43,470 nucleotides of DNA from a virus. Positions 1,457 to 34,039 of the stretch are shown here, piece by piece. The notes below the pieces were generated by a model, which worked only from the letters and a program-made list of their open reading frames with translations, had not been told where the DNA came from and ran no database searches. Each line of letters starts with the position of its first letter. Position 1 is the first letter of the stretch. The stretch spans positions 1-43,470 of the IMG/VR virus record IMGVR_UViG_3300035180_000278, one strand, 5' to 3'. Both the position numbers and the translations under genes were made by a program.

Positions 1457-1569
1457 ACAGGCCATCCCATAGTAGGTAATTCAGATGATGGTCGTTGAGG
1501 TACATCAATATCCCCACTCTGTTTATCACCTTCATAGTAACTTCCGTCTTTGCTTGATATATATGACAT
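1453..1569 (-). CDS. Small 38-residue protein between tail fibre and lysis genes
   Basis: The ATG at 1567-1569 shares its A with the tail fibre stop (TAATG), and the TGA overlaps the next ATG (ATGA). This double coupling argues that it is translated despite its length. The peptide is acidic and polar, with YYEGD near residue 11 and DIDVPQRP near residue 20. Similar tiny proteins with a YYEGD...VPQRP pattern occur beside phage tail fibre genes, but I know no function. It was found by reading the strand, being shorter than usual ORF cut-offs. Confidence 0.7.
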   Translation of the reverse strand: MSYISSKDGSYYEGDKQSGDIDVPQRPSSELPTMGWPV

Positions 1570-3182
1570 TAGAATGATCTCTCCATGAATGTTCCAACTT
1601 TCCAGTTTGCTGGGGTAGCTGCAACAGAACCGCCAGTACGTATGGGTATAAAAATATTGCCTGTTGTTGTAATTCTTAACACACCTTTATCATAAGAGAA
1701 GTTTGTCCCGTACCAAGCAGTGCTTGTTCCTGCGTTACCATCTCCCACAACTTTAATCCGTTCTCCTGCTGTATAACCACCTTCTGCTGTTATACATTCA
1801 TAATAATTTACACATCTAATGTGTTTATTCCCAATGTTATGATTAAATGTGTAGGTTGTATTTAGTGCAGGAGCGCCTTGTTCAACAGCATACATCCCCA
1901 TCAACGCATACCAAGTAATAGCAGTCACCACAGCGCCAGCTACAGTCACTTCGCCAACAAATACTCTATAAGTTTGAGCGGCAGTTGCACCGTTGCCTAC
2001 CTTACCAGTCATTTCTTGGATGTTGAATGTGAACTGACCAGAGGTAACTGAGTAAGTACCACCGAATTGATATACAGGCGCTAAGGTAGTTGAACCAGTA
2101 GTACAAGTACCATCAGCAGCAATATCTAAGTAAGCGTACATCGTGCCGTTAGTAGATAAGCTAGTCCAAGAAGGATTGGTAATTGAACCTCTACGGTTTA
2201 CCATGCCATTAGCAGCATTTAGATATAGTGTAGTCGCAGTCGTTACAGTTGTTGAGCCAGTTGACCCACCGAAAGCAGGGAATCCACTAGAATCAACTGT
2301 TCCTAATTCAACAGTTTGCCTAGTAGTTATTGGGGTAGTTGTTAGACCGTACTGGTTAAATAATATGGCACTTACACCCGCAACTTGTAGCTCACCTGAT
2401 GCACCTAGAAAGTTAATCTTACTTCCTGATCCAATAATAATCCCATCAGTCCATGTTTTAATACCGGCTATTGTTTGCACACCCGTGGTTAAAACAGCAT
2501 TTGCAGTAGTAGCAATCGCATTCCATGCAGATGAATACCAAGTTTCTAAAGCAGGTAAAGTTGAGTTAAAGCGGGTGTACCCGTCAGCAGGTGACGCATC
2601 TCTCTGCGCTGTTGTTCCAGCAGGAAGGATTGCCGAGCCTGTAGTGGAGGTTTTATTTACTAGGACGGTTGATGCGTTAATTCCAGCAAGTGAATCAGCG
2701 GCACTCGCTGCATCGGCACTGGTCTGTGCGGCACTTGCTATAACGCTCGCAATTAGCGCATCGGGCACCACTGCGCTGGTTATTGGAACCGTTACAGCAC
2801 GACTTAGCTTTTCGCTCAATTGCTGGGCGAGGATAGTCAGCTTGTCTAATGCGGAATTAATAACAGAAGGATAAAAACCACCCGCGTTTTGCAGGTCCGT
2901 AGACTGCAGCAGTGCAACGGCACTGCTTATCACCATCGTGTAGGTAGACGGCAATGCGACGAGCAGTGTGATAGTGCCGCCAGGTGTTGCGTTTTGGTCA
3001 GCGTTTAACTGAACGGTGTAGTCAGTAGTCAGCGCAATTACCGACTCCACACCTGTACTTGTCAATGCCGTAGTGACAAGCATATCGCTTGTCGAAAACA
3101 CTTTAAAAGCAAACGCGAAAATCGTTGTCGAGCCATTACCTGTGAAGGGTCCAGCCTTGCGAACTTGTGAACTTATTGTCAT
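1569..3182 (-). CDS. Tail fibre protein
   Basis: This 537-residue virion protein probably binds the host surface. The N-terminal 140 residues (GPFTGNGSTTIFAFAFKV, then TTDYTV, then a helical AQQLSEKLSRAV) resemble the virion-attachment region of T7 gp17-type fibres. The remainder is rich in Ser, Thr, Gly and Ala with beta-type repeats, as in trimeric fibre shafts and tips. It lies between the ejection proteins and lysis genes, the expected place. The SD GGAG (3191-3194) sits inside one arm of a perfect 10-bp stem just before the ATG, and a late-promoter element lies upstream. There is no C-type lectin/Mtd-like tail of the BPP-1 kind and no reverse transcriptase nearby. Confidence 0.85.
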   Translation of the reverse strand: MTISSQVRKAGPFTGNGSTTIFAFAFKVFSTSDMLVTTALTSTGVESVIALTTDYTVQLNADQNATPGGTITLLVALPSTYTMVISSAVALLQSTDLQNAGGFYPSVINSALDKLTILAQQLSEKLSRAVTVPITSAVVPDALIASVIASAAQTSADAASAADSLAGINASTVLVNKTSTTGSAILPAGTTAQRDASPADGYTRFNSTLPALETWYSSAWNAIATTANAVLTTGVQTIAGIKTWTDGIIIGSGSKINFLGASGELQVAGVSAILFNQYGLTTTPITTRQTVELGTVDSSGFPAFGGSTGSTTVTTATTLYLNAANGMVNRRGSITNPSWTSLSTNGTMYAYLDIAADGTCTTGSTTLAPVYQFGGTYSVTSGQFTFNIQEMTGKVGNGATAAQTYRVFVGEVTVAGAVVTAITWYALMGMYAVEQGAPALNTTYTFNHNIGNKHIRCVNYYECITAEGGYTAGERIKVVGDGNAGTSTAWYGTNFSYDKGVLRITTTGNIFIPIRTGGSVAATPANWKVGTFMERSF

Positions 3183-3184
3183 AG

Positions 3185-3212
3185 GGATAGCTCCAATTAT
3201 ATGGAGCTATCC
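3185..3212 (-). promoter_or_regulatory. Hairpin occluding the tail fibre ribosome-binding site
   Basis: A perfect inverted repeat of 10 bases (GGATAGCTCC / GGAGCTATCC) surrounds an 8-base AT loop. The 3' arm on the transcript contains the GGAG that is the only good SD for the tail fibre ATG eight bases on. There is no U-run, so it is not a standard terminator. Read-through RNA would fold and hide the SD. Confidence 0.75.
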
Positions 3213-3243
3213 TACACACTCAATTCAGAGATACGCATACCTA
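3209..3243 (-). promoter_or_regulatory. Candidate late promoter, copy 5 (tail fibre and lysis genes)
   Basis: On the minus strand TAGGTATGCGTATCTCT is followed by 12 bases and TAGGAT. The initial TAG is the stop codon of the 2525-residue gene. A start about 7 bases after the hexamer would fall near 3202, inside the hairpin loop. Confidence 0.65.
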
Positions 3244-6200
3244 ACGCTTGAAGCCGAAGGCCAACGCCGCTGGGTTTCCTGTCTCACCATCGGCCAGCGC
3301 ATTGGCACCTGTTATGGTTCGATTAACCTGGGCACTAGGTAGACCTGTCACATCGCCCATCAGGTTAATAGCTGTCTTACGGAAGGCGTCATCAAACTCA
3401 CCCTGATGCACTTGCTTTGCAAACTTCCCAGCGTCACTAATCAAACGCAAACCAGCAGGTCCTGCATAGTCACGCGCTTTGTCATCGGTGCCCGTTACCA
3501 TTTTTGCAGCTTCACCAAATTCACGCACTACCACCATCAAACCCATGAGGTAGTCCAGTTGTGCGTTGATGAGCTTTTGTGCCAGGTTTTCATCATCGTC
3601 ACCGTCGCCACTCGGCACCAGTGCTTGCTTCAGCATCATGCCCAATACCGCTGGCACGGTGTACAGCATGAGGTACTTCGCGGCCAGTTTACCCTTGCTT
3701 TTCTCGGTCATGGTGGCCGTGACCCCCAAGTTGAATGCCGTATTCATGAAAGAATAAAACACGGTGAACAGTTTTTGTGCAGGGCCGCCGCGCTCGATGG
3801 CCGACTGATCCTTTAATTCACCGCCACCTTGGCTATCAATCACGGCCTGGTCGGCCAATGCAATCGCACGCTCGTCGTTATCTTCCTGAGCCAGGGCCTT
3901 GTTGTAGGCACCCAGCCAGGTGGGCACGTCGACCACGCTTTGCATTTGCATCATCAGGAAATAGGTAGATCCCTTAACCGCGCCCATGGCCGCACTTTCG
4001 TCCTGCACTTTGTTGCGCAGCTCGTTCAATTCACGGAAGCGAGTGCGCGCACGGTTCTCCATAAACTCAGACATCTCACTCACCTTGCGCTTGGCAGCCA
4101 TCGGGTTAGCCGTGTACTCGGCAATGCCCTGCCCTATCCACTTAGGACCCACATGCACGATAGATTGGTTAAACCCAGTGATCTGCATCGCTGCCGACAC
4201 CACGTTGAAGCCCAGACCTGATGCGCTGATACCTTGGCGCAATCTACCCAGTGCCTTGTCAACACCCTGTGCCGTACCGCCGTCGCCTTCGGCAATTGCC
4301 TCAGACCATGTTTTAAGTTGGCGCTTAAAATCAGGACCATACTGGCTACGGATGGCCGTGTCGATACTCTGTGATTTTAGTAACCGATTAGAATCAATCA
4401 ACCACTCATGCCATGCCAGGTCGTGAATAACCTCGTTCACACCTGAGTACAAACCTGACAGGGTGTAAAGCAATGGTCTACCATTCACCTCTTCCACGCG
4501 ACCCTTGGTAAAACTGCGACGGGTGGTGGCCGTGGTGTAGGCACCCTGTAGCTGGCGCTTTGCCGCTTCGGCGTCGTTGTGTTCTTCGGCACGTTGGCTT
4601 GCCATTGGGTCAAACTTAACCGGGTAGTAGCCACCGCGCATTGACACCATGGTGCCGTCGGCAGCCTTGATGTCGAATGGTTTGTGCTCAATCCACTCGG
4701 GTTCTTTGCCGTAGACATTGCGCTCTTTCTTGGCGATCAATGGGCGATAGCTTTCGAAGTGATCCCATACCTGTTGCACCGCATTCCACTCGGCAGGGGT
4801 CAGTGTTTCCAACACCGGCATAATTTGCTCAATGGTCCAGCCTTCGCCACCGAGTAAGCGCTGCATATTGCTTTCGTTACCCACGTTCAGTGCCATGGCA
4901 ATGCGCGCTTCGCGGTTCAGACTGCGATCGATTGATGCAAAGTATTGGCCCTTACCACCCATCTTGCCCTGCTTGAACACCGGCGCCATGATCTTGGTCA
5001 GTGCAATTGTTGCCTCTGCACGCTTTGTTGTTTCCCATGACGAGCGCTCATTGGCAGGTTGCAGCAGATACTTCCACACGGTGCCGCCATCTTTGCCGCC
5101 ATCCAACACCCTGATAATTGTCGAGGCTTTAATGTGCGCAGCAAAGAAAGTCTTTAACCCTTGAATCGCTCTGCCGGTGTTGGTTGTTGGGGTGCGCATG
5201 TCCGCTGTACGGCCATCAGCATGTTCATTAATGCTGGCCACCATTTCATCACGCACGGCCTCATACGCACGTTGATCTTTAGCGGTGAGTAGTCGGTTCT
5301 TTAAACGGCCCAGGTGTTCGATCTGTTTGACAGAATCAACCAGACCTCTGAATTCCTCGACCGTCATTTCCTTATACGATTGACGGTTGGCTTCATTCTG
5401 CAATGCTTCAGGAATATCAGGCGCCAAGCCTTCCAGTTCTTTCGCAGCCAACCATGCTGCCAGTGACTTGCGCTTGTCGATAGTCTTGAGTGAGGTTGAC
5501 TTACGCAGGTCGAAGCGATCCAGAAGTGCATCGATCTGGTCAGTATAGTCAGGGTCTATGCTCTTGCGCGAGCTGTCCTTGTCAAACTTCTTGAAGTAAT
5601 CGATACCCTTCTCAACTTCTTCTTTTGCATCATAGGCGGCACGCGCCATCATGGTATTCAATACCTGGTTGCGCTTTTCAGCTAAAGCCGCAGCGATGTC
5701 GCCTTTACGGTGAGCCTCAGCCGACGCCTTGGCCGCACGCACTTCGGCGCCAGTGTAGAGTGATGGCTTGATGTTGCGGATCTTGAGCCGTGCGATGCTT
5801 GCCTCGGCAAACATCTTGGCAGCCTTGGCCAGAATGGGTTGCTTACCTAAGCCCTTGGCCATAGTATTGGCTTCGGTCAGCAGCACCTTTTCACGCGCAC
5901 GGTTGTGAATAACCTGATCAGCAGCACGACTGATTGCTTCCGGTGATGACAGATCACCGTGCCCCTCGAGCATACGTGCATCGGTCAGGTTCTCGATAAC
6001 ATCAGTGGGTGCATCGGCAGCGGCAACGGCACGCACCAACGCGTCACCCGATGTGAAGCCTGGGATAATTTCAGATAGCACATCGGGGTTGATACCGTTG
6101 GGCGACACCATCCGGTTCGTATTCAGCTTTTCAATAACCTCAGCCGGTAGATCCATGGCCTTCAGATCACCCAGGTCAAGACGCCCGGCGTGTACTGAGG

Positions 6201-9200
6201 ACAAATCCACCTGGTCACCATTGCGCACATCCTGATCGCGGGTGTAGTCATAGGCAGTGGAACGCTGCACATCACCAGATAGCTCGGCCTTGAATTTATC
6301 CTCGAACTCGTGCAGATCCACCTTGCCGTTTTCGTCGCGCTCAAGGTAACCATATTGACCCAGTGCCTCGGCTATATCATCCAGCGAACGACCCGACTTG
6401 CGCCATACAGACTTGCCGAATATACCACTGGCAGGTTTGTCGGCAGGGTCAGTACCCCAGGTTGAAATAACTTGCTCTTTACTCAGGCCACCCAGCTTGG
6501 CAATGGCTGCAAACAGACCATCGATGGTTTCATCCACATGCTCGGGTGATGACTTTGGTGGCACATACGCACCCACCTTGTCGGTGTTCTTACCGGTAAG
6601 CCATGACCATGCACGGTACACCGGTTGACTCATTACCTCGGTGCGCACCTGGGATCTAATCTCACGACGCAATGCTTCAGACTTTTGCTTGAGTTTGTTG
6701 ACTTCTTTTGTATGCGCATTGTGCAACCACTCCATATCGCGCAGGCCGCGTGCCTGTAGATACTGAATTGCATCGAGCGTGCCCTGCATACCCTCGTGGT
6801 GATACTTCTCAAATTCCTCACGCGACATACCGGCCTCTTGTGCCGATGCAAATAGCGGTTGCATACTACGCGCATGTTCAGCCATCTTGATCTCATCGGT
6901 GGTAGCCAACATACGATCAAATACACCACGCACGGTGTCATCCAGCTTACCGGCTTCGGGATGGCCTTCAAGGAATTGCTTGAGTGATTTATAGACGTTG
7001 AGCAGCCACGCACGGAAGGTCTGGAATACGCGCTGCAATTCTATGCTCGGCGCTTCACCCTTGAACAAGTAAGCCTCGAATGCTTCAGCAGTGCGCTCAT
7101 GGTGGGTGCGTTTCTCTTCAAAATCCATGGTGGCCCACTGGCGCAGTTGGTCAGTGAGGTCGCCTTGAATACCGTGCCACTTGAGTAGCGCGTGTGTGTC
7201 ATCGAGGATCTGTTGCTCACCAGGTTGAACCCCTGGTTTGTTCAGTAGCTCCCCGGCGAGTGCGATGTCATTCTCAAAAAAGAAGTGACCGGCTTCGTGC
7301 AGGAAGGTAGACAGATCTGCATTTTTCAGCAGACTGATGAGGTTGGTTTCAGGGTTGAATGAGCCGCGTGCGGGTTGGTTAAATTCGCCGTTACTTTCGC
7401 CGCGCAACTCAATAGGCTCACCGGCCGTCATGCGCTTTGGCTGGCCCTTTTCCTTTTCAACCTGGGCGTCGAGTTTGTCTATATATTCAGACGCATCAGT
7501 GTCAGCATTAACCAATTGGTCAACACCAAAGTAAATACCTGAGCCATTCTTCTCAGCAACACCCACGTGCTTAGGATGTGGTAAGTCTTGAATACCTACG
7601 GCGATGATGTAGCTCTGGATTGCTTGCTGGGCAGAACGAAGTGCGTCGTTAAGTTGTTCGACTGTTGCACCAGGTGCAATGAATAAGAACTCATCACCAC
7701 CATTGCGGAACGGGATCAGATCCGCACCGGGTATTTTCTGAACCTCTTCAGCAGCAATGTGAGCAATGTTTTTGAAAACGATGTCAGCCGTTTTAAGGCC
7801 GAGCGCTTCGGTCAGGCCGCTAAGGTTGGACACATCAAGGCCCGCGACGGGTATTGCTTTGTCTGACTTTTTAACCTGTTCTAATGCGCGAGCCAATGAC
7901 TTGCGTACATCGTTGGCAGTGTAGAAACCTGTCAGCTCGTCGCGGTCAGTATAGGGTTTGGTGCCGTCTTGTTGTTGCTGGGTGAGCCCAGCTTGTTTGG
8001 ATTTACTACTGTGCGAGTCTAATGCAAAATTGTCGGGCGCAATTAAGCTGGTTGTTGCGCTGACGCCCGGGCTTCCCTTTCTTTCAAGCGTGCGTCCATA
8101 TCCCTCTTCGCCTGTTCGTGCTTTTCCTTGTTCTTGTTGATTACCTTGTCCAATGCTTCGGCTAACTCTTGCGGCTTGTCCTGTAGATGCAGCAAGCCAA
8201 GTCTGCCCAGCCTCATTTCTGTTGACATTTTGTTCTCCTTTCGGCATTTGCTCGCGCGTGTCATTTTGTACGCGAGTGATTATTTCGTCGATGCTACCTT
8301 CTAGTTTAGTCTGTGCACCGTAGAGTGCGATCCCTTTGGCGCCGGGTACTTTCGGTGCCGCAATTTGATCAAGACCATTCTCTTTGGCAATAGCTTGAGC
8401 TTTCTGTGCGGCCATGTCAATGGCGGCCTCGCTGGCGAATCCGTCTTTAACCAATACTGCAAAGCGGCCACCGCCGCGGCGTGCTGCAATCTGGCCCTCG
8501 AAACTTTCAGCAACCGCAGAGCCGAGTTGTTTCAATACGGCATCGGTGCGTGCGTTGGCACCCATAGCCTTGTTGGCACCACCCAAGTTGAACAGGTCAA
8601 ATTCAACATAGTGATACCCACCCACCTTTTTGGCGCGCACCATAGCCTGACGCAATTCAGTGTCCGAGTATAACCCGGTCATATCATCGCGCATGGTTTC
8701 AGGCATAACGGCCTCAGCCTGTTGTTGCGTGAGGCCATGCTCTGCCGAGCGCTTCGCATGGTCATCGAACATGGCCAGCTCAGGGTCAACCTGATCAGAT
8801 ACCAGATCGTAACGCTGATTAAACGAATCACCCATGACAGACTCACCACGCACACCGAGCGTTTGCTTTTCAAACATGGCTTCGGGTGTGATGTTGAGTT
8901 GTGCAGCACGCACTGCGTTGTGCGATGCAATCAGGGTAGCGTACATTTCATTAGCCGCTGGACTAAAGCGCCCTACCGTGTTCATTTGATCGAGTATCTT
9001 TTGCTTGACGACATCGTGACTCGCCATAAATTCATCGCGGCCACTGTCGTGCTCAATTAGTTGCTCCATTTCAGCGTGCAATTTCTCGGCATGGTTATCC
9101 ATAAAACCCTTGGCCTCGGCACCACTCATACCATCGGGGTCGGTCTTGAGGTGTTGCAGTAAGCCCTGGCTGTATTCGGTACCCGCAATCTTGCTGGCAT

Positions 9201-10818
9201 ACTCTTCAATCGGTATGCGCATGTCGGTGCCAGTGGTCAGTGATTGCTCATACTGCGCAGCGATTGATGGTGATAGCTCATAGATCTTGTCAGCCACGCC
9301 CGACTGCGCAAATTCTTTGGCTGAGATATATAGCTCTTGCACAGGGCCATCTTCAGCAGCAGACTTTACGAAATCAGAGAATGTGTTGGTGTCGCGCTGG
9401 TTTACCTTGGAGGCCGCAGCGAGCTGGTTGAGTTGTTCAATGACTTTGGTTTGTTGTTCAGTTTGTTGGGCCGTTTTAATTTTTGAATCATGCCCCGCCG
9501 CCCCAGCAAATGCGCCACCCGTTAAGCCGCCTACAAACAAACCGGCTACCATTTGCTCACCAACTCCTTCTGTTAGTGATTGATTAGGATCAATATTATG
9601 AGCTGTCGCCATGTTAGCGGATAACTGTTCACCACCACCTTGGATAGTTTCGACAGCGGCTTCGTTGGCAAAACCCTTACCGAAGCGTGGTAAAAATGCG
9701 CCCCCTTCACCAATGATCTTGCCAAAGAACTTGCCACCCACCAGATTGGTTGCAGCATCCACTGCACCTGCACCAATACCTGACATTTCGCCAGTTTGAG
9801 ACGCGGTGTAAATACGTGCAGCACTTGGGTTGAATCCCTGCTTAATGAGCGCTTGATAGGTTGGTGATTTTTCAATCTTGTCCTGAGACAGCTTTTCCAC
9901 ATTACTCTGAGAGCCTAGCGCGCCCTGCGCATAACCGACAGCCCCCTCAGATCCAGCACCAAATTTACTGGCCATATTAACAGCCGCGTCCACCCCGGCT
10001 TTCTTTGCAGCCTCGGCAGACATCCCCTCGATCAGTGCTTGCTTTTCCACCTGCATCGAGGCGCCACGAGTGAGGTACGCAGTTAATGCGAGGGCCGCCG
10101 TTGTGGGTAGCGATCGTATTGCGTCGCTCACCATCTTGACAGGTGACAGGTAGGCCGCCTCTCCCGTGTCGGTCGTGGCATATTTTAATGGATCAAATTC
10201 TGCCTTTGTCTTCGCTGACCGATCATCCATAATTAAATCAGCGGCGGTCGTCTGGTTACGCGCAAACCGCGATAGCCCCATCGTCACACTATTATCGCGC
10301 AGGTTTTTTAATTTAGCGTCATCGTTTTTATAAAGAACCGCCGCGTCGGTATCACTCAAGGTGAACGGGTTGACGGTATCTATTAACTTGGCACCCGCCC
10401 CCATCAGATCGACAATACCTGCAGTACCCGAGTGGCCTAACTGCGACAGTGTTGTTTCAACACTCGACATTACCCCGGCGTCGTCATGCACCAGCTTTGC
10501 AAACTCAGGGTCGAGCGTGATTTTTTCGCGCAGCTTGGGGGCATCCTTTGTTTCTTCGTTCAATACCTGAGAATCTGCAATGCGATGATATTCATCGGGT
10601 TGAGCTTTGACTGCGGCAGCAGTTGTCCCTAATAGATCTGCCACACGCTTGGCACGTGCATATTCATCAGGGTTAGTTTGCACGGCCACGGCGGCCGATG
10701 ACTTGAAGGCATCCGACTTACCATTTTCCTCGGCCATCATTTGATCTAGGTAAGGGTTAGACTTAGCTGCCGGTGTGGAAGCCTCTTTGTCCTGCATCAT
10801 TTTTAAGTAGTCGGTCAT
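3241..10818 (-). CDS. Giant internal/ejection virion protein with two GGDEF-like domains and a metallopeptidase-like motif
   Basis: The 2525-residue protein is coded by 17% of the genome and lies where T7-like phages keep their internal core/ejection proteins, so it is probably ejected with DNA. Seen in order: Ala/Gly-rich helical N-terminus (1-690); a degenerate GGDEF-like domain (about 690-830, starting DDMTGLYS, with RGGGRF at 781-786 in place of GGDEF); a polar linker (864-925); a second GGDEF-like domain (about 950-1110, starting DELTGFYT, with GGDEF at 1040-1044, no RxxD inhibitory site at the expected spacing); HEAGH at 1174-1178 followed by a helical region, as in metallopeptidase domains of phage polyvalent proteins; a long helical middle; and LFTVFYSFMNTAFNLG near 2350, a motif I associate with large polyvalent-protein C-termini. 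ATG overlaps the upstream stop (TAATG). Enzyme activity is inferred only. Confidence 0.85.
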   Translation of the reverse strand: MTDYLKMMQDKEASTPAAKSNPYLDQMMAEENGKSDAFKSSAAVAVQTNPDEYARAKRVADLLGTTAAAVKAQPDEYHRIADSQVLNEETKDAPKLREKITLDPEFAKLVHDDAGVMSSVETTLSQLGHSGTAGIVDLMGAGAKLIDTVNPFTLSDTDAAVLYKNDDAKLKNLRDNSVTMGLSRFARNQTTAADLIMDDRSAKTKAEFDPLKYATTDTGEAAYLSPVKMVSDAIRSLPTTAALALTAYLTRGASMQVEKQALIEGMSAEAAKKAGVDAAVNMASKFGAGSEGAVGYAQGALGSQSNVEKLSQDKIEKSPTYQALIKQGFNPSAARIYTASQTGEMSGIGAGAVDAATNLVGGKFFGKIIGEGGAFLPRFGKGFANEAAVETIQGGGEQLSANMATAHNIDPNQSLTEGVGEQMVAGLFVGGLTGGAFAGAAGHDSKIKTAQQTEQQTKVIEQLNQLAAASKVNQRDTNTFSDFVKSAAEDGPVQELYISAKEFAQSGVADKIYELSPSIAAQYEQSLTTGTDMRIPIEEYASKIAGTEYSQGLLQHLKTDPDGMSGAEAKGFMDNHAEKLHAEMEQLIEHDSGRDEFMASHDVVKQKILDQMNTVGRFSPAANEMYATLIASHNAVRAAQLNITPEAMFEKQTLGVRGESVMGDSFNQRYDLVSDQVDPELAMFDDHAKRSAEHGLTQQQAEAVMPETMRDDMTGLYSDTELRQAMVRAKKVGGYHYVEFDLFNLGGANKAMGANARTDAVLKQLGSAVAESFEGQIAARRGGGRFAVLVKDGFASEAAIDMAAQKAQAIAKENGLDQIAAPKVPGAKGIALYGAQTKLEGSIDEIITRVQNDTREQMPKGEQNVNRNEAGQTWLAASTGQAARVSRSIGQGNQQEQGKARTGEEGYGRTLERKGSPGVSATTSLIAPDNFALDSHSSKSKQAGLTQQQQDGTKPYTDRDELTGFYTANDVRKSLARALEQVKKSDKAIPVAGLDVSNLSGLTEALGLKTADIVFKNIAHIAAEEVQKIPGADLIPFRNGGDEFLFIAPGATVEQLNDALRSAQQAIQSYIIAVGIQDLPHPKHVGVAEKNGSGIYFGVDQLVNADTDASEYIDKLDAQVEKEKGQPKRMTAGEPIELRGESNGEFNQPARGSFNPETNLISLLKNADLSTFLHEAGHFFFENDIALAGELLNKPGVQPGEQQILDDTHALLKWHGIQGDLTDQLRQWATMDFEEKRTHHERTAEAFEAYLFKGEAPSIELQRVFQTFRAWLLNVYKSLKQFLEGHPEAGKLDDTVRGVFDRMLATTDEIKMAEHARSMQPLFASAQEAGMSREEFEKYHHEGMQGTLDAIQYLQARGLRDMEWLHNAHTKEVNKLKQKSEALRREIRSQVRTEVMSQPVYRAWSWLTGKNTDKVGAYVPPKSSPEHVDETIDGLFAAIAKLGGLSKEQVISTWGTDPADKPASGIFGKSVWRKSGRSLDDIAEALGQYGYLERDENGKVDLHEFEDKFKAELSGDVQRSTAYDYTRDQDVRNGDQVDLSSVHAGRLDLGDLKAMDLPAEVIEKLNTNRMVSPNGINPDVLSEIIPGFTSGDALVRAVAAADAPTDVIENLTDARMLEGHGDLSSPEAISRAADQVIHNRAREKVLLTEANTMAKGLGKQPILAKAAKMFAEASIARLKIRNIKPSLYTGAEVRAAKASAEAHRKGDIAAALAEKRNQVLNTMMARAAYDAKEEVEKGIDYFKKFDKDSSRKSIDPDYTDQIDALLDRFDLRKSTSLKTIDKRKSLAAWLAAKELEGLAPDIPEALQNEANRQSYKEMTVEEFRGLVDSVKQIEHLGRLKNRLLTAKDQRAYEAVRDEMVASINEHADGRTADMRTPTTNTGRAIQGLKTFFAAHIKASTIIRVLDGGKDGGTVWKYLLQPANERSSWETTKRAEATIALTKIMAPVFKQGKMGGKGQYFASIDRSLNREARIAMALNVGNESNMQRLLGGEGWTIEQIMPVLETLTPAEWNAVQQVWDHFESYRPLIAKKERNVYGKEPEWIEHKPFDIKAADGTMVSMRGGYYPVKFDPMASQRAEEHNDAEAAKRQLQGAYTTATTRRSFTKGRVEEVNGRPLLYTLSGLYSGVNEVIHDLAWHEWLIDSNRLLKSQSIDTAIRSQYGPDFKRQLKTWSEAIAEGDGGTAQGVDKALGRLRQGISASGLGFNVVSAAMQITGFNQSIVHVGPKWIGQGIAEYTANPMAAKRKVSEMSEFMENRARTRFRELNELRNKVQDESAAMGAVKGSTYFLMMQMQSVVDVPTWLGAYNKALAQEDNDERAIALADQAVIDSQGGGELKDQSAIERGGPAQKLFTVFYSFMNTAFNLGVTATMTEKSKGKLAAKYLMLYTVPAVLGMMLKQALVPSGDGDDDENLAQKLINAQLDYLMGLMVVVREFGEAAKMVTGTDDKARDYAGPAGLRLISDAGKFAKQVHQGEFDDAFRKTAINLMGDVTGLPSAQVNRTITGANALADGETGNPAALAFGFKR
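8043..8228 (-). CDS. Possible nested gene inside the giant virion gene
   Basis: An ORF of 61 residues runs in the +1 frame within the linker-coding part (residues 864-925) of the 2525-residue gene. Its ATG at 8226-8228 is preceded by AAAGGAG with six bases between, a stronger SD than most genes here. The product starts MSTEMRLGRLGLLHLQDKPQ and continues as a charged helix rich in Lys/Glu/Ala (NKEKHEQAKRDMDARLKERE), protein-like composition quite unlike the random shadow frames around it. The host-frame linker at this point is Gly/Gln/Arg-rich and could tolerate overprinting. Function unknown. Confidence 0.55.
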   Translation of the reverse strand: MSTEMRLGRLGLLHLQDKPQELAEALDKVINKNKEKHEQAKRDMDARLKEREARASAQQPA

Positions 10819-13155: not shown

Positions 13156-13190
13156 ACGATACTGTGTTATTTAAGAGATACGCATACCTA
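13156..13190 (-). promoter_or_regulatory. Candidate late promoter, copy 4 (ejection genes)
   Basis: Minus strand TAGGTATGCGTATCTCT, 12 bases, then TATCGT. Its TAG is the stop codon of the nozzle gene. The start would fall near 13149, giving a short leader before the 179-residue gene. Confidence 0.65.
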
Positions 13191-17744: not shown

Positions 17745-18419
17745 CTACTGCTTTGCTGGGTAGAGGGAATTCGCATAATCGTTGTTGCTTTTAGCGATAG
17801 GTTTACCGCCTTGGCCCGATTGCACAAAATTGTCCTCACTGATTGCCTTGCCCGCTCTGTACATCATCCTGATTAATTCGGGGTGATTGCCAAGACCAGA
17901 CTCGTTTAACAGCGTGCGCAGTTCGGGTGAGCCGAATTGTTCCAGGGCCTTCTTTGCTATGGCCATGTTTTCATTCAGCTTGTCACCACCAAATTCCTTA
18001 TCAGACTTTGAGGTGTCAGCCCATTCAGTACGTGCCGCCTCGAGTGCCTTGCTCTGCTTTTCAGCGAGGGCCGGGGCAATCTTGTCGATCACTTTCTGCG
18101 CAGCTTCCTGGGTCATGTTTAGTTCTTTGGCGACTTCAGAGAATTGGGCCAACACTTCAGGCGAGAATTCTTTGCCTTCAGGTGGTACAAACTCATACTT
18201 TTCAGGGGCACCCGTCGGTGCCGCTTTATCGCCTTCAGCTTTCGTACCTTCAGACTTATCGCCCTCGGTAGTTTGACCTTCGGTTGCTTGCTGGCTTGAT
18301 GCTCCCGGTGTTGTTGCCGCAGGAGTTCCACCTACGGGTGCAGCACTGGTTGCATCAGGTGATGAGGCGGTACCTTGAGTGGTATTGTCAGTTCCCGTCA
18401 TCAGTGTTTCTGTTGTCAT
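17745..18419 (-). CDS. Scaffolding protein
   Basis: The 224-residue product has a disordered N-terminal half rich in Thr, Ala, Gly and Glu (TEGQTTEGDKSEGTKAEGDK), then a helical half (LAQFSEVAKELNMTQEAAQKVIDK, then RTLLNESGLGNHPELIRMMYRAGKAI). The pattern PE(L/I)...LG..HP....M...GKAI is common at the end of phage scaffolds. It directly precedes the major capsid gene. The start has SD AAAGGAA seven bases upstream and overlaps the end of the Bbp19-like gene by 32 bases. It would guide shell assembly and then leave the head. Confidence 0.88.
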   Translation of the reverse strand: MTTETLMTGTDNTTQGTASSPDATSAAPVGGTPAATTPGASSQQATEGQTTEGDKSEGTKAEGDKAAPTGAPEKYEFVPPEGKEFSPEVLAQFSEVAKELNMTQEAAQKVIDKIAPALAEKQSKALEAARTEWADTSKSDKEFGGDKLNENMAIAKKALEQFGSPELRTLLNESGLGNHPELIRMMYRAGKAISEDNFVQSGQGGKPIAKSNNDYANSLYPAKQ

Positions 18420-18723
18420 TATTCGTTTCCTTTATCATCACTGGATACAGCTCAGGGCATAACGCGTGAACCAGCGCCAGTGTACGGAGGCCATCGTTTC
18501 TATTACCTTCCGCAAATGCCATTTGCATTGCGTTGGTATTAAACGACAGACGAAATACACCTGCCCGTTCCAGATGGCGCCAGATAATCCGACGCCCCCG
18601 TTTGCTACCCATGAGCCACTTAATATCAGCCTCTTCGGTTTCGCGGGAGACGCGCTCAGCAGTTTGTTTCTGCGCCTTTGTGCGTTCAATACCTGCTAGA
18701 TCTAGGGGGTCGTGGTTGCTCAT
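18388..18723 (-). CDS. Bbp19-like head-module protein
   Basis: A protein of 111 residues from the ATG at 18721-18723 (an ATG two codons earlier is possible). The region DIKWLMGSKRGRRIIWRHLE, then AGVFRLSF and a C-terminal ALCPELYPVMIKE, matches the small conserved proteins called Bbp19-like that precede the scaffold gene in many podoviruses. Its exact role is not known to me. It is the first gene after late-promoter copy 3; the predicted start of transcription falls at or near the ATG at 18723, and no SD is evident, so it may be read leaderless. Confidence 0.8.
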   Translation of the reverse strand: MSNHDPLDLAGIERTKAQKQTAERVSRETEEADIKWLMGSKRGRRIIWRHLERAGVFRLSFNTNAMQMAFAEGNRNDGLRTLALVHALCPELYPVMIKETNNDNRNTDDGN

Positions 18724-18729
18724 GCGCAT

Positions 18730-18764
18730 AATTTACACGATCCATTAAGAGATACGCACACCTA
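18730..18764 (-). promoter_or_regulatory. Candidate late promoter, copy 3 (head genes)
   Basis: Minus strand TAGGTGTGCGTATCTCT, 12 bases, then TAAATT. Its TAG is the stop codon of the tandem-repeat gene. The predicted start is about 18723, the first base of the preferred ATG of the Bbp19-like gene. Confidence 0.65.
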
Positions 18765-25050: not shown

Positions 25051-25491
25051 TCAGTTACCCAATATCATATTGCGACCCAATGGGGCCTTGCTACCCAGGC
25101 TTGCATCCGTACCCACGGTCGCATTACCAGCCAATGGGTTTTTGGCAATAGACGTGCTCGATTCAGCAAATGCTCTGAGCTGACCATCATTCGTACCCGA
25201 TGACGTATCAGCCACCTCCTTGTCGGTGCCACGCTGGGCAACTTGGTATTCTGTTACTGGACCAGGGGGGCGCTTGGGTGTTTGGCCTGTCAGATCAAGC
25301 ACCAGGCCAAACACATCTCTACGAAAACCAGACCACGTATTCCCAAGTGAATACTGCGCACCCCTCCATGCTTTATTGAATTCAGGTACGACGGAATCAG
25401 TCACACCAGTGACCGACCCCGCCCCATCCCTCACAGCCTGTTTGGCTGATCCTCTGGCGTTCTTAACAAACTCCGCTATTCCCCAACCCAT
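25051..25491 (-). CDS. Unassigned virion-type protein with C-terminal PLGRNMILG motif
   Basis: A protein of 146 residues starting MGWGIAEFVKNARGSAKQAV, with a mixed polar middle (FRRDVFGLVLDLTGQTPKRPP) and a Gly/Ala-rich tail ending SKAPLGRNMILGN. It is the first gene after late-promoter copy 2, with GGGGGTGG just upstream of the ATG. The end resembles that of the 99-residue protein two genes on, suggesting a shared docking peptide. No domain was recognised. Confidence 0.65.
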   Translation of the reverse strand: MGWGIAEFVKNARGSAKQAVRDGAGSVTGVTDSVVPEFNKAWRGAQYSLGNTWSGFRRDVFGLVLDLTGQTPKRPPGPVTEYQVAQRGTDKEVADTSSGTNDGQLRAFAESSTSIAKNPLAGNATVGTDASLGSKAPLGRNMILGN

Positions 25492-25514
25492 ACCACCCCC
25501 AATTCAATACGTGC

Positions 25515-25549
25515 AATCTACACGTTGAATTCAGAGATACGCATACCTA
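25515..25549 (-). promoter_or_regulatory. Candidate late promoter, copy 2 (portal group)
   Basis: Minus strand TAGGTATGCGTATCTCT, 12 bases, then TAGATT. Its TAG is the terminase stop codon. The predicted start near 25508 gives a short leader containing the SD of the 146-residue gene. Confidence 0.65.
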
Positions 25550-27046: not shown

Positions 27047-27479
27047 CAACCTTGCCCAATACGCCAGCGGCAGTGAGCAGTGCCAACTCGGCACGCATAT
27101 CCGCCTCACTCATATCGCTCAGATCTAACTTGCCCGAGATCTTGAGGTGAGAATTCTCACGATACTTCTCAGGCGCATGAGCCTTGAGTAAGAAGATTGA
27201 CAGCGTATCGCTGTACTTGGTGATGGAGCCACAGGGTGCACCCTGGTGGAATACTGGTTCGTCACTGCCTTCAAACGCACGCCGGTGTGCCTCGTCCTCG
27301 AGTGCTGTGACCCCAACGACCAGGGCCTTATCCCAAGCGGCAGCAAACACTTCGTCAGCAGCTCGCCAGTTGTAGGCCGTCATCCGGGTGATATCAATGG
27401 CCTTGCACGCTTTACCAACGTTGCAAGTCTCTGATAGTACAGCAGTAAATGCCGTTAGTTTTTCAGGTGTCAATTTCAT
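27024..27479 (-). CDS. Terminase small subunit
   Basis: A protein of 151 residues. The N-terminal part has a helix-turn-helix-like segment (CNVGKACKAIDITRMTAYNWR), followed by AHRRAFEGSDEPV, YSDTLSIFLLKAHAPEKYR, which is the typical small terminase signature, and an acidic helical C-terminus. It should recognise the packaging site and recruit the large subunit encoded next. It follows late-promoter copy 1, whose hexamer lies just upstream of the ATG, so the leader would be very short. Confidence 0.9.
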   Translation of the reverse strand: MKLTPEKLTAFTAVLSETCNVGKACKAIDITRMTAYNWRAADEVFAAAWDKALVVGVTALEDEAHRRAFEGSDEPVFHQGAPCGSITKYSDTLSIFLLKAHAPEKYRENSHLKISGKLDLSDMSEADMRAELALLTAAGVLGKVDDGSDLV

Positions 27480-27485
27480 AAGGCC

Positions 27486-27520
27486 ATGCTACTACGTGTT
27501 TTCAGAGTTACGCACACTAA
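27486..27520 (-). promoter_or_regulatory. Candidate late promoter, copy 1 (terminase)
   Basis: Minus strand TTAGTGTGCGTAACTCT, 12 bases, then TAGCAT. This is the least conserved copy and lies within the last codons of the HTH gene rather than starting at its stop. The predicted start near 27479 coincides with the small terminase ATG. Confidence 0.55.
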
Positions 27521-27777: not shown

Positions 27778-27972
27778 CTAGTACACCTAGTACACCTAGT
27801 GCACCTAGCGCACTAACTTTCTATATATCCCTCTAGCTACTAATATAGTCAGCTCTACAATCCCATATATAAATAGGTGTACTAGGTGTACTAGGTGTGC
27901 TGTCGCCCTGTAAACATTGGGCTAAGATCTAGTACACCAAAATTAAAAAGGTGTACTAAGGTGTACTAGATC
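27778..27972. repeat. Iteron cluster with AT-rich core, candidate replication origin
   Basis: Four tandem 9-mers CTAGTACAC (two perfect, then CTAGTGCAC and CTAGCGCAC) fill 27778-27813. The reverse form GTGTACTAG occurs twice perfectly and once degenerately at 27877-27903. One more forward copy is at 27929 and two reverse copies at 27951 and 27961. GATCTAGTACACC (27926) and GGTGTACTAGATC (27960) pair as an inverted repeat. The 63 bases between the first two blocks are AT-rich with TATATA runs. The cluster fills the gap after the primase-helicase gene; it could instead be an operator or packaging site. Confidence 0.75.
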
Positions 27973-34009: not shown

Positions 34010-34039
34010 TTTAGATAGGGCGAAGGGGTCCTATCTAAA
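34010..34039 (+). promoter_or_regulatory. Hairpin before the DNA polymerase gene
   Basis: TTTAGATAGG and CCTATCTAAA form a perfect 10-bp stem with loop GCGAAGGGGT. No T-run follows, so it is not a standard terminator. It ends 16 bases before the polymerase ATG, and its loop carries an SD-like GAAGGGG. A translational operator is possible. Confidence 0.65.

Follow-up and report, generated by a model that had tools for sequence, protein, structure and literature searches.

A late promoter nested in a hairpin over the tail-fibre Shine-Dalgarno sequence: a probable translational gate in phages related to BPP-1

In phage T4, the genes e, soc, 49 and I-TevI have stems that hide the ribosome-binding site (RBS); for e and I-TevI, local late promoters have been described as well (PMC3014915, PMC2988022). 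The structure at gene e cuts lysozyme synthesis about 100-fold, and the stem is missing in some relatives of the T4 hairpin-gated genes (PMC3014915, PMC2988022). The same logic of a hairpin with a nested late promoter is found in mobE of phage Aeh1 and in segB, I-TevII and I-TevIII of T4, which are selfish endonuclease genes of T-even-like phages (PMC2988022) and have no sequence relation to the locus described here.

The locus lies in a 43,470-bp virus record (IMG/VR IMGVR_UViG_3300035180_000278; the whole stretch is referred to as the window), which is related to Bordetella phage BPP-1. The phage is presumably temperate, since the window contains an integrase and a helix-turn-helix repressor-like gene. 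As in T4 e, soc, 49 and I-TevI, the Shine-Dalgarno (SD) sequence and/or the AUG is in a stable stem of longer transcripts, the stem is absent in some relatives, and a local late promoter would give RNA without the 5' arm, from a start that is predicted here. Unlike in these T4 systems, the target is a tail-fibre gene, and unlike the T4 late promoter (TATAAATA, read with gp55) the promoter consists of two parts, one of them a different, -35-like box, and belongs to a temperate podovirus. The initial annotation had likened the locus to e and soc, with their early and late transcripts; the likeness holds for the design, but the RNA reading through here is probably late RNA of the same operon and not early or middle RNA. 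The gate is apparently convergent with that of T4, differing in promoter and target gene, and would have arisen, apparently independently, in an unrelated and widespread podovirus group that includes the model phage BPP-1. In the open-access literature, neither this promoter nor this gate was found to have been described for BPP-1-like phages, and no published work on BPP-1 late promoters was found.

Late promoter and predicted transcription start

The features of the locus, in the direction of transcription, are as follows.

3241 to 10818, minus strand: upstream gene for a 2,525-aa virion protein (BPP-1 bbp10 homologue), proposed source of the read-through RNA
3224 to 3240, minus strand: -35-like upstream box GTATGCGTATCTCTGAA, beginning directly behind the upstream stop codon
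3209 to 3214, minus strand: -10-like hexamer TAGGAT, 15 nt past the 11-nt box, as in relatives
3202 to 3212, minus strand: hairpin 5' arm GGATAGCTCCA, upstream of or at +1
3202, minus strand: putative transcription start A, predicted by the family rule that +1 is hexamer+7
3196 to 3201, minus strand: hairpin loop TATAAT
3185 to 3195, minus strand: hairpin 3' arm TGGAGCTATCC with the SD GGAG, based on folding and on arm coevolution in relatives
1569 to 3182, minus strand: tail-fibre gene, proposed to be controlled by the element, assigned by PHROG tail-fibre/tail-protein matches to its N-terminal part

The upstream gene, which had been put at about 7.6 kb, measures 7,578 bp, and the gap of 58 nt between it and the tail-fibre ATG reads, on the minus strand, GTATGCGTATC TCTGAATTGAGTGTG TAGGAT AGCTCC A TATAAT TGGAGCTATCC CT, then ATG. 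The tail-fibre late promoter is GTATGCGTATC-N15-TAGGAT (3240-3209, minus strand). Five copies of the 17-nt box GTRTGCGTAWCTCTKAA are present in the window and none in 100 shuffles; the 11-nt core followed by N15 and the hexamer gives five sites, all on the minus strand, where 0.06 are expected. Four of these late promoters are in gaps between ORFs; the remaining one (27486-27517) has an overlap with a short ORF upstream of it. In four of the five (3240, 13187, 18761 and 25546) the box starts at the base right after the upstream stop codon.

The element also follows the stop codon of the bbp10 homologue in relatives and is present at the tail-fibre gene of most of them, with the family consensus GTGCRCGTRnC-N15-TAnnnT and with A2 and T6 of the hexamer at about 97% in the family matrix. 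The strict pattern matched in 17 of the 30 records searched, all matches within a phage lying on one strand and numbering no more than four; the reversed-pattern control gave a single match across all phage records. We call the promoter 'late' because the genes it appears to serve encode terminase, virion proteins and the tail fibre. The T4 late form, TATAAATA at -10 without a -35 element, is not found here, where TAGGAT is accompanied by a conserved -35-like box. The conserved element also differs from a sigma70 promoter (TTGACA and TATAAT, 16-18 spacing). A phage RNA polymerase was considered as the reader of the promoter and rejected: the PHROG virion RNA polymerase match of the 2,525-aa protein covers only the N-terminal part of the profile, and the window proteins scanned, which represent part of the ORFs, included no polymerase or sigma factor.

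The working promoter might instead be a sigma70-like TTGAGT-16-TATAAT with its -10 in the hairpin loop and a start near 3189. No sigma70-type match in the first 20 kb exceeds its 10 of 12 positions, a score it shares, and TATAAT occurs only four times in the window; however, chance alone would give as many matches of this kind in the region, the site is absent at this position in relatives while the box-N15-hexamer is conserved, and RNA begun at 3189 would lack the SD, making this reading very improbable.

The rule that the late promoter starts transcription at hexamer+7 is derived from the coincidence, at that position, of the ATG of a leaderless late gene with a preference for A in tail-fibre leaders. 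In relatives of gene 18388-18729 the promoter was present at 77 of 80 loci; hexamer+7 is the first base of the ATG in 68, and in another eight the ATG is shifted one base downstream. The mRNAs are predicted to be leaderless because the ATG begins at hexamer+7. Hexamer+7 is A in 38 of 51 tail-fibre leaders of relatives, where the ATG is about 20 nt beyond the predicted +1. For the window, this agrees with the start near 3202 that had been predicted from the hexamer at 3209-3214; A3202 is the last base of the 5' arm and adjoins the loop. The local transcript would thus begin past the 5' arm, save for this one base.

Other late promoters in the window have related arrangements. Leaderless late mRNAs are predicted for the bbp19 homologue (18723-18761, minus strand) in nearly all of 80 relatives (loci L189-L268), and for the small terminase gene (27479-27517, minus strand), where the ATG is at the predicted start, hexamer+7. 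At 25484-25546 (minus strand) a hairpin is predicted (z -3.1) that carries the -10 of a second late promoter in its loop and extends into the GGGGG of the SD, and RNA from the predicted start at 25508 is unstructured; a search for relatives of the gene at 25051-25491 found none.

Hairpin over the tail-fibre ribosome-binding site

On the minus strand the hairpin reads 5'-GGATAGCTCCA TATAAT TGGAGCTATCC CT ATG and forms a perfect 11-bp stem with a 6-nt loop. The perfect 10-bp stem (3185-3212) of the initial annotation is therefore real and holds the tail-fibre SD, its length having been understated by the closing A-U pair. The SD GGAG is entirely within the 3' arm, 8 nt upstream of the ATG (3182). 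The inverted repeat is the strongest perfect short-loop repeat of the window, in which about 0.05 with arms of at least 11 are expected. By folding, the 32-nt hairpin has a stability of -20.3 kcal/mol (z -6.4 against shuffles), with a z of -6.9 when the flanks are included. The RBS of the longer transcript is predicted to be sequestered: opening it from SD to AUG would cost 21-23 kcal/mol when the RNA reads through, but 4-8 kcal/mol when it begins at 3202, although the SD of this shorter RNA still partly pairs with early codons. A search of the window with Rfam covariance models gave no match. The exact hairpin pattern had no match in viral contigs, because the arm sequences are not conserved.

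Such a hairpin could mainly terminate the upstream operon, the promoter being nested in the loop and the loss of the 5' arm letting the new transcript escape. Stems followed by T-runs are found in BPP-1 (L007; a 13-bp GC-rich stem, then TTTTT) and in L013 and L029. In the window, however, the stem is followed by CTATGACA, which has no T-run, most relatives with strong stems also lack one, and in most of these the SD is within the 3' arm. We regard termination as unlikely to be the main role, although in a few phages the stem comes right up against the SD or runs into a stretch of T, and part of the family may use it in this way.

A close counterpart is the leader of BPP-1 bbp9 (NC_005357, hexamer 6158-6153), which shares with the window a homologous junction, the promoter box and its spacing, and has its SD (AGGGG) in the 3' arm. 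Unlike that of the window, the bbp9 stem is in another register, with the 5' arm in the promoter spacer, and is followed by TTTTT. The leader element carries no annotation in the NC_005357 record. The BPP-1 stem (CCCCTGGGGAAG/CTTCCCCAGGGG, then TTTTT; L140, 6120-6180, minus strand) resembles a terminator hairpin, and its loop contains the promoter hexamer.

A strong site resembling an intrinsic terminator (11-bp stem, ATTTTTT) is present inside the late gene cluster at 15900-15875 (minus strand). Two further strong intergenic inverted repeats, at 27930-27958 (TAGTACACC..GGTGTACTA) and 34010-34039 (TTTAGATAGG..CCTATCTAAA), are possible operators or terminators.

Coevolution of the hairpin arms in relatives

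Arm pairing was compared in 51 non-redundant tail-fibre leaders, with 10 more fetched later for replication (61 in all). Among the 51, pairing of the stretch upstream of +1 with the downstream stretch of its own leader had a mean of -14.5 kcal/mol, against -11.6 kcal/mol with those swapped in from other phages (z -7, 0 of 10,000 permutations), and strict contiguous stems were found in 22 leaders, against 4.65 by swapping. The own-arm effect was found again in the 10 new leaders (35 of 10,000), and overall 25 of the 61 passed the strict stem test. An alignment of 15 sequences had 17 double-sided changes, against 7.4 by shuffling, with all slid registers lower. On the upstream-protein tree, phages with a stem group together (11 changes against about 17 shuffled). 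The arms thus coevolve, as expected of a stem kept by selection, but only in part of the family, since in more than half of the relatives the stem is absent or weak; the check proposed in the initial annotation, covariation of the stem in related phages, comes out in its favour to that extent.

The register of the stem differs between lineages, its 5' arm running from the hexamer to the +1 in the window and lying in the promoter spacer in the BPP-1 clade, which suggests that the same logic has been rebuilt repeatedly. Some relatives (L018, L053 and L080) have no stem although promoter and SD are kept. The stem of L301 and L334 stops just before the GGAG, like the stable hairpin of seg43(25) of Aeromonas phage 25, which ends just upstream of the RBS; unlike that hairpin, the window stem covers the SD (PMC2988022). 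The position of the 5' arm upstream of +1 is matched at a nearly equal fraction by swapped controls, the leaders being only about 20 nt long, and was discarded as a statistic.

At the leaderless late gene, which has the same promoter, arm coevolution was not significant (z -0.7, 25 leaders). An internal virion gene was tried as a second gated gene and rejected (z -1.35, not significant), although with 16 leaders a weaker effect is possible. The dyad does not, therefore, appear to be simply part of the promoter.

These comparisons bear on whether the palindrome acts as DNA, as an operator, or as a structure for a protein that regulates the late promoter. It overlaps the -10 and the +1, the sense and antisense strands fold with equal stability, and the excess of G-U (12) over A-C (6) in stems is weak, giving no clear preference for RNA. 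Nevertheless, the arm sequences vary between close relatives, leaving no fixed site, the centre of the dyad shifts from about -18 to +4 relative to +1, and the same promoter at the leaderless gene is without dyad coevolution; a role as DNA is thus decidedly unlikely. RNA is favoured as the selected molecule, short of proof, mainly because the arm contains the SD, no sequence is fixed and the centre of the dyad moves; the G-U and A-C counts add little.

That the stem regulates nothing in this phage, or acts only through translational coupling to the upstream gene, is the least probable reading and can nearly be dismissed. Many relatives have no stem and no more than 58 nt separate the upstream stop codon from the ATG, but the stability of the window hairpin with its flanks and the excess of pairing, both across the family and in the new leaders, argue for a role, and a ribosome stopping at 3243-3241 should fall short of the stem, which is 29 nt further on.

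Proposed translational gate

The likely function of the hairpin, in our judgement, is a translational gate that makes tail-fibre synthesis dependent on the gene's own late promoter. Polymerase from upstream late promoters would copy both arms, and the read-through RNA would fold and bury the SD and start region. RNA begun at A3202 would retain one base of the 5' arm, form no stem and leave the SD far more accessible. The difference in predicted opening cost suggests that little tail fibre would be made from read-through messages and that local ones would be used for the most part. This division between blocked and translated RNA was proposed in the initial annotation and is supported by the promoter, +1 and coevolution comparisons. 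Across the BPP-1-related phage family, probably only messages begun at the local promoter, and not those read in, are translated well. The promoter, the +1 rule, the stem and the coevolution of its arms at the tail-fibre gene are established at the level of sequence; in cells, read-through RNA would have to be made and the stem to block ribosomes.

Read-through is likely to come from the late promoters upstream on the same strand (13156-13187 and beyond), in which case the distinction made by the gate is probably one among late messages and not between early and late ones. Its purpose may be to set the dosage and timing of the tail fibre apart from the long message for virion proteins. How late genes are controlled in BPP-1 becomes testable, with a bearing on how tail-fibre supply is set, and a test for arms that coevolve on either side of a promoter start offers a way of finding gates of this kind.

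A more general rule, that in BPP-1-like phages a late gene with its own promoter is translated only from RNA begun there, is a tentative extension that we hold to be doubtful. If it were true, some genes would follow it by leaderless mRNAs, the ATG being the +1 and no SD being present inside the longer message, and others by hiding the SD in a stem with its 5' arm upstream of +1, so that the long read-through RNA would serve only genes without a promoter of their own.

The giant 2,525-aa virion protein itself contains a GGDEF (diguanylate cyclase) domain at residues 958-1079 (window 7579-7947, minus strand), in which the GGDEF motif is intact (RNGGDEFLF).
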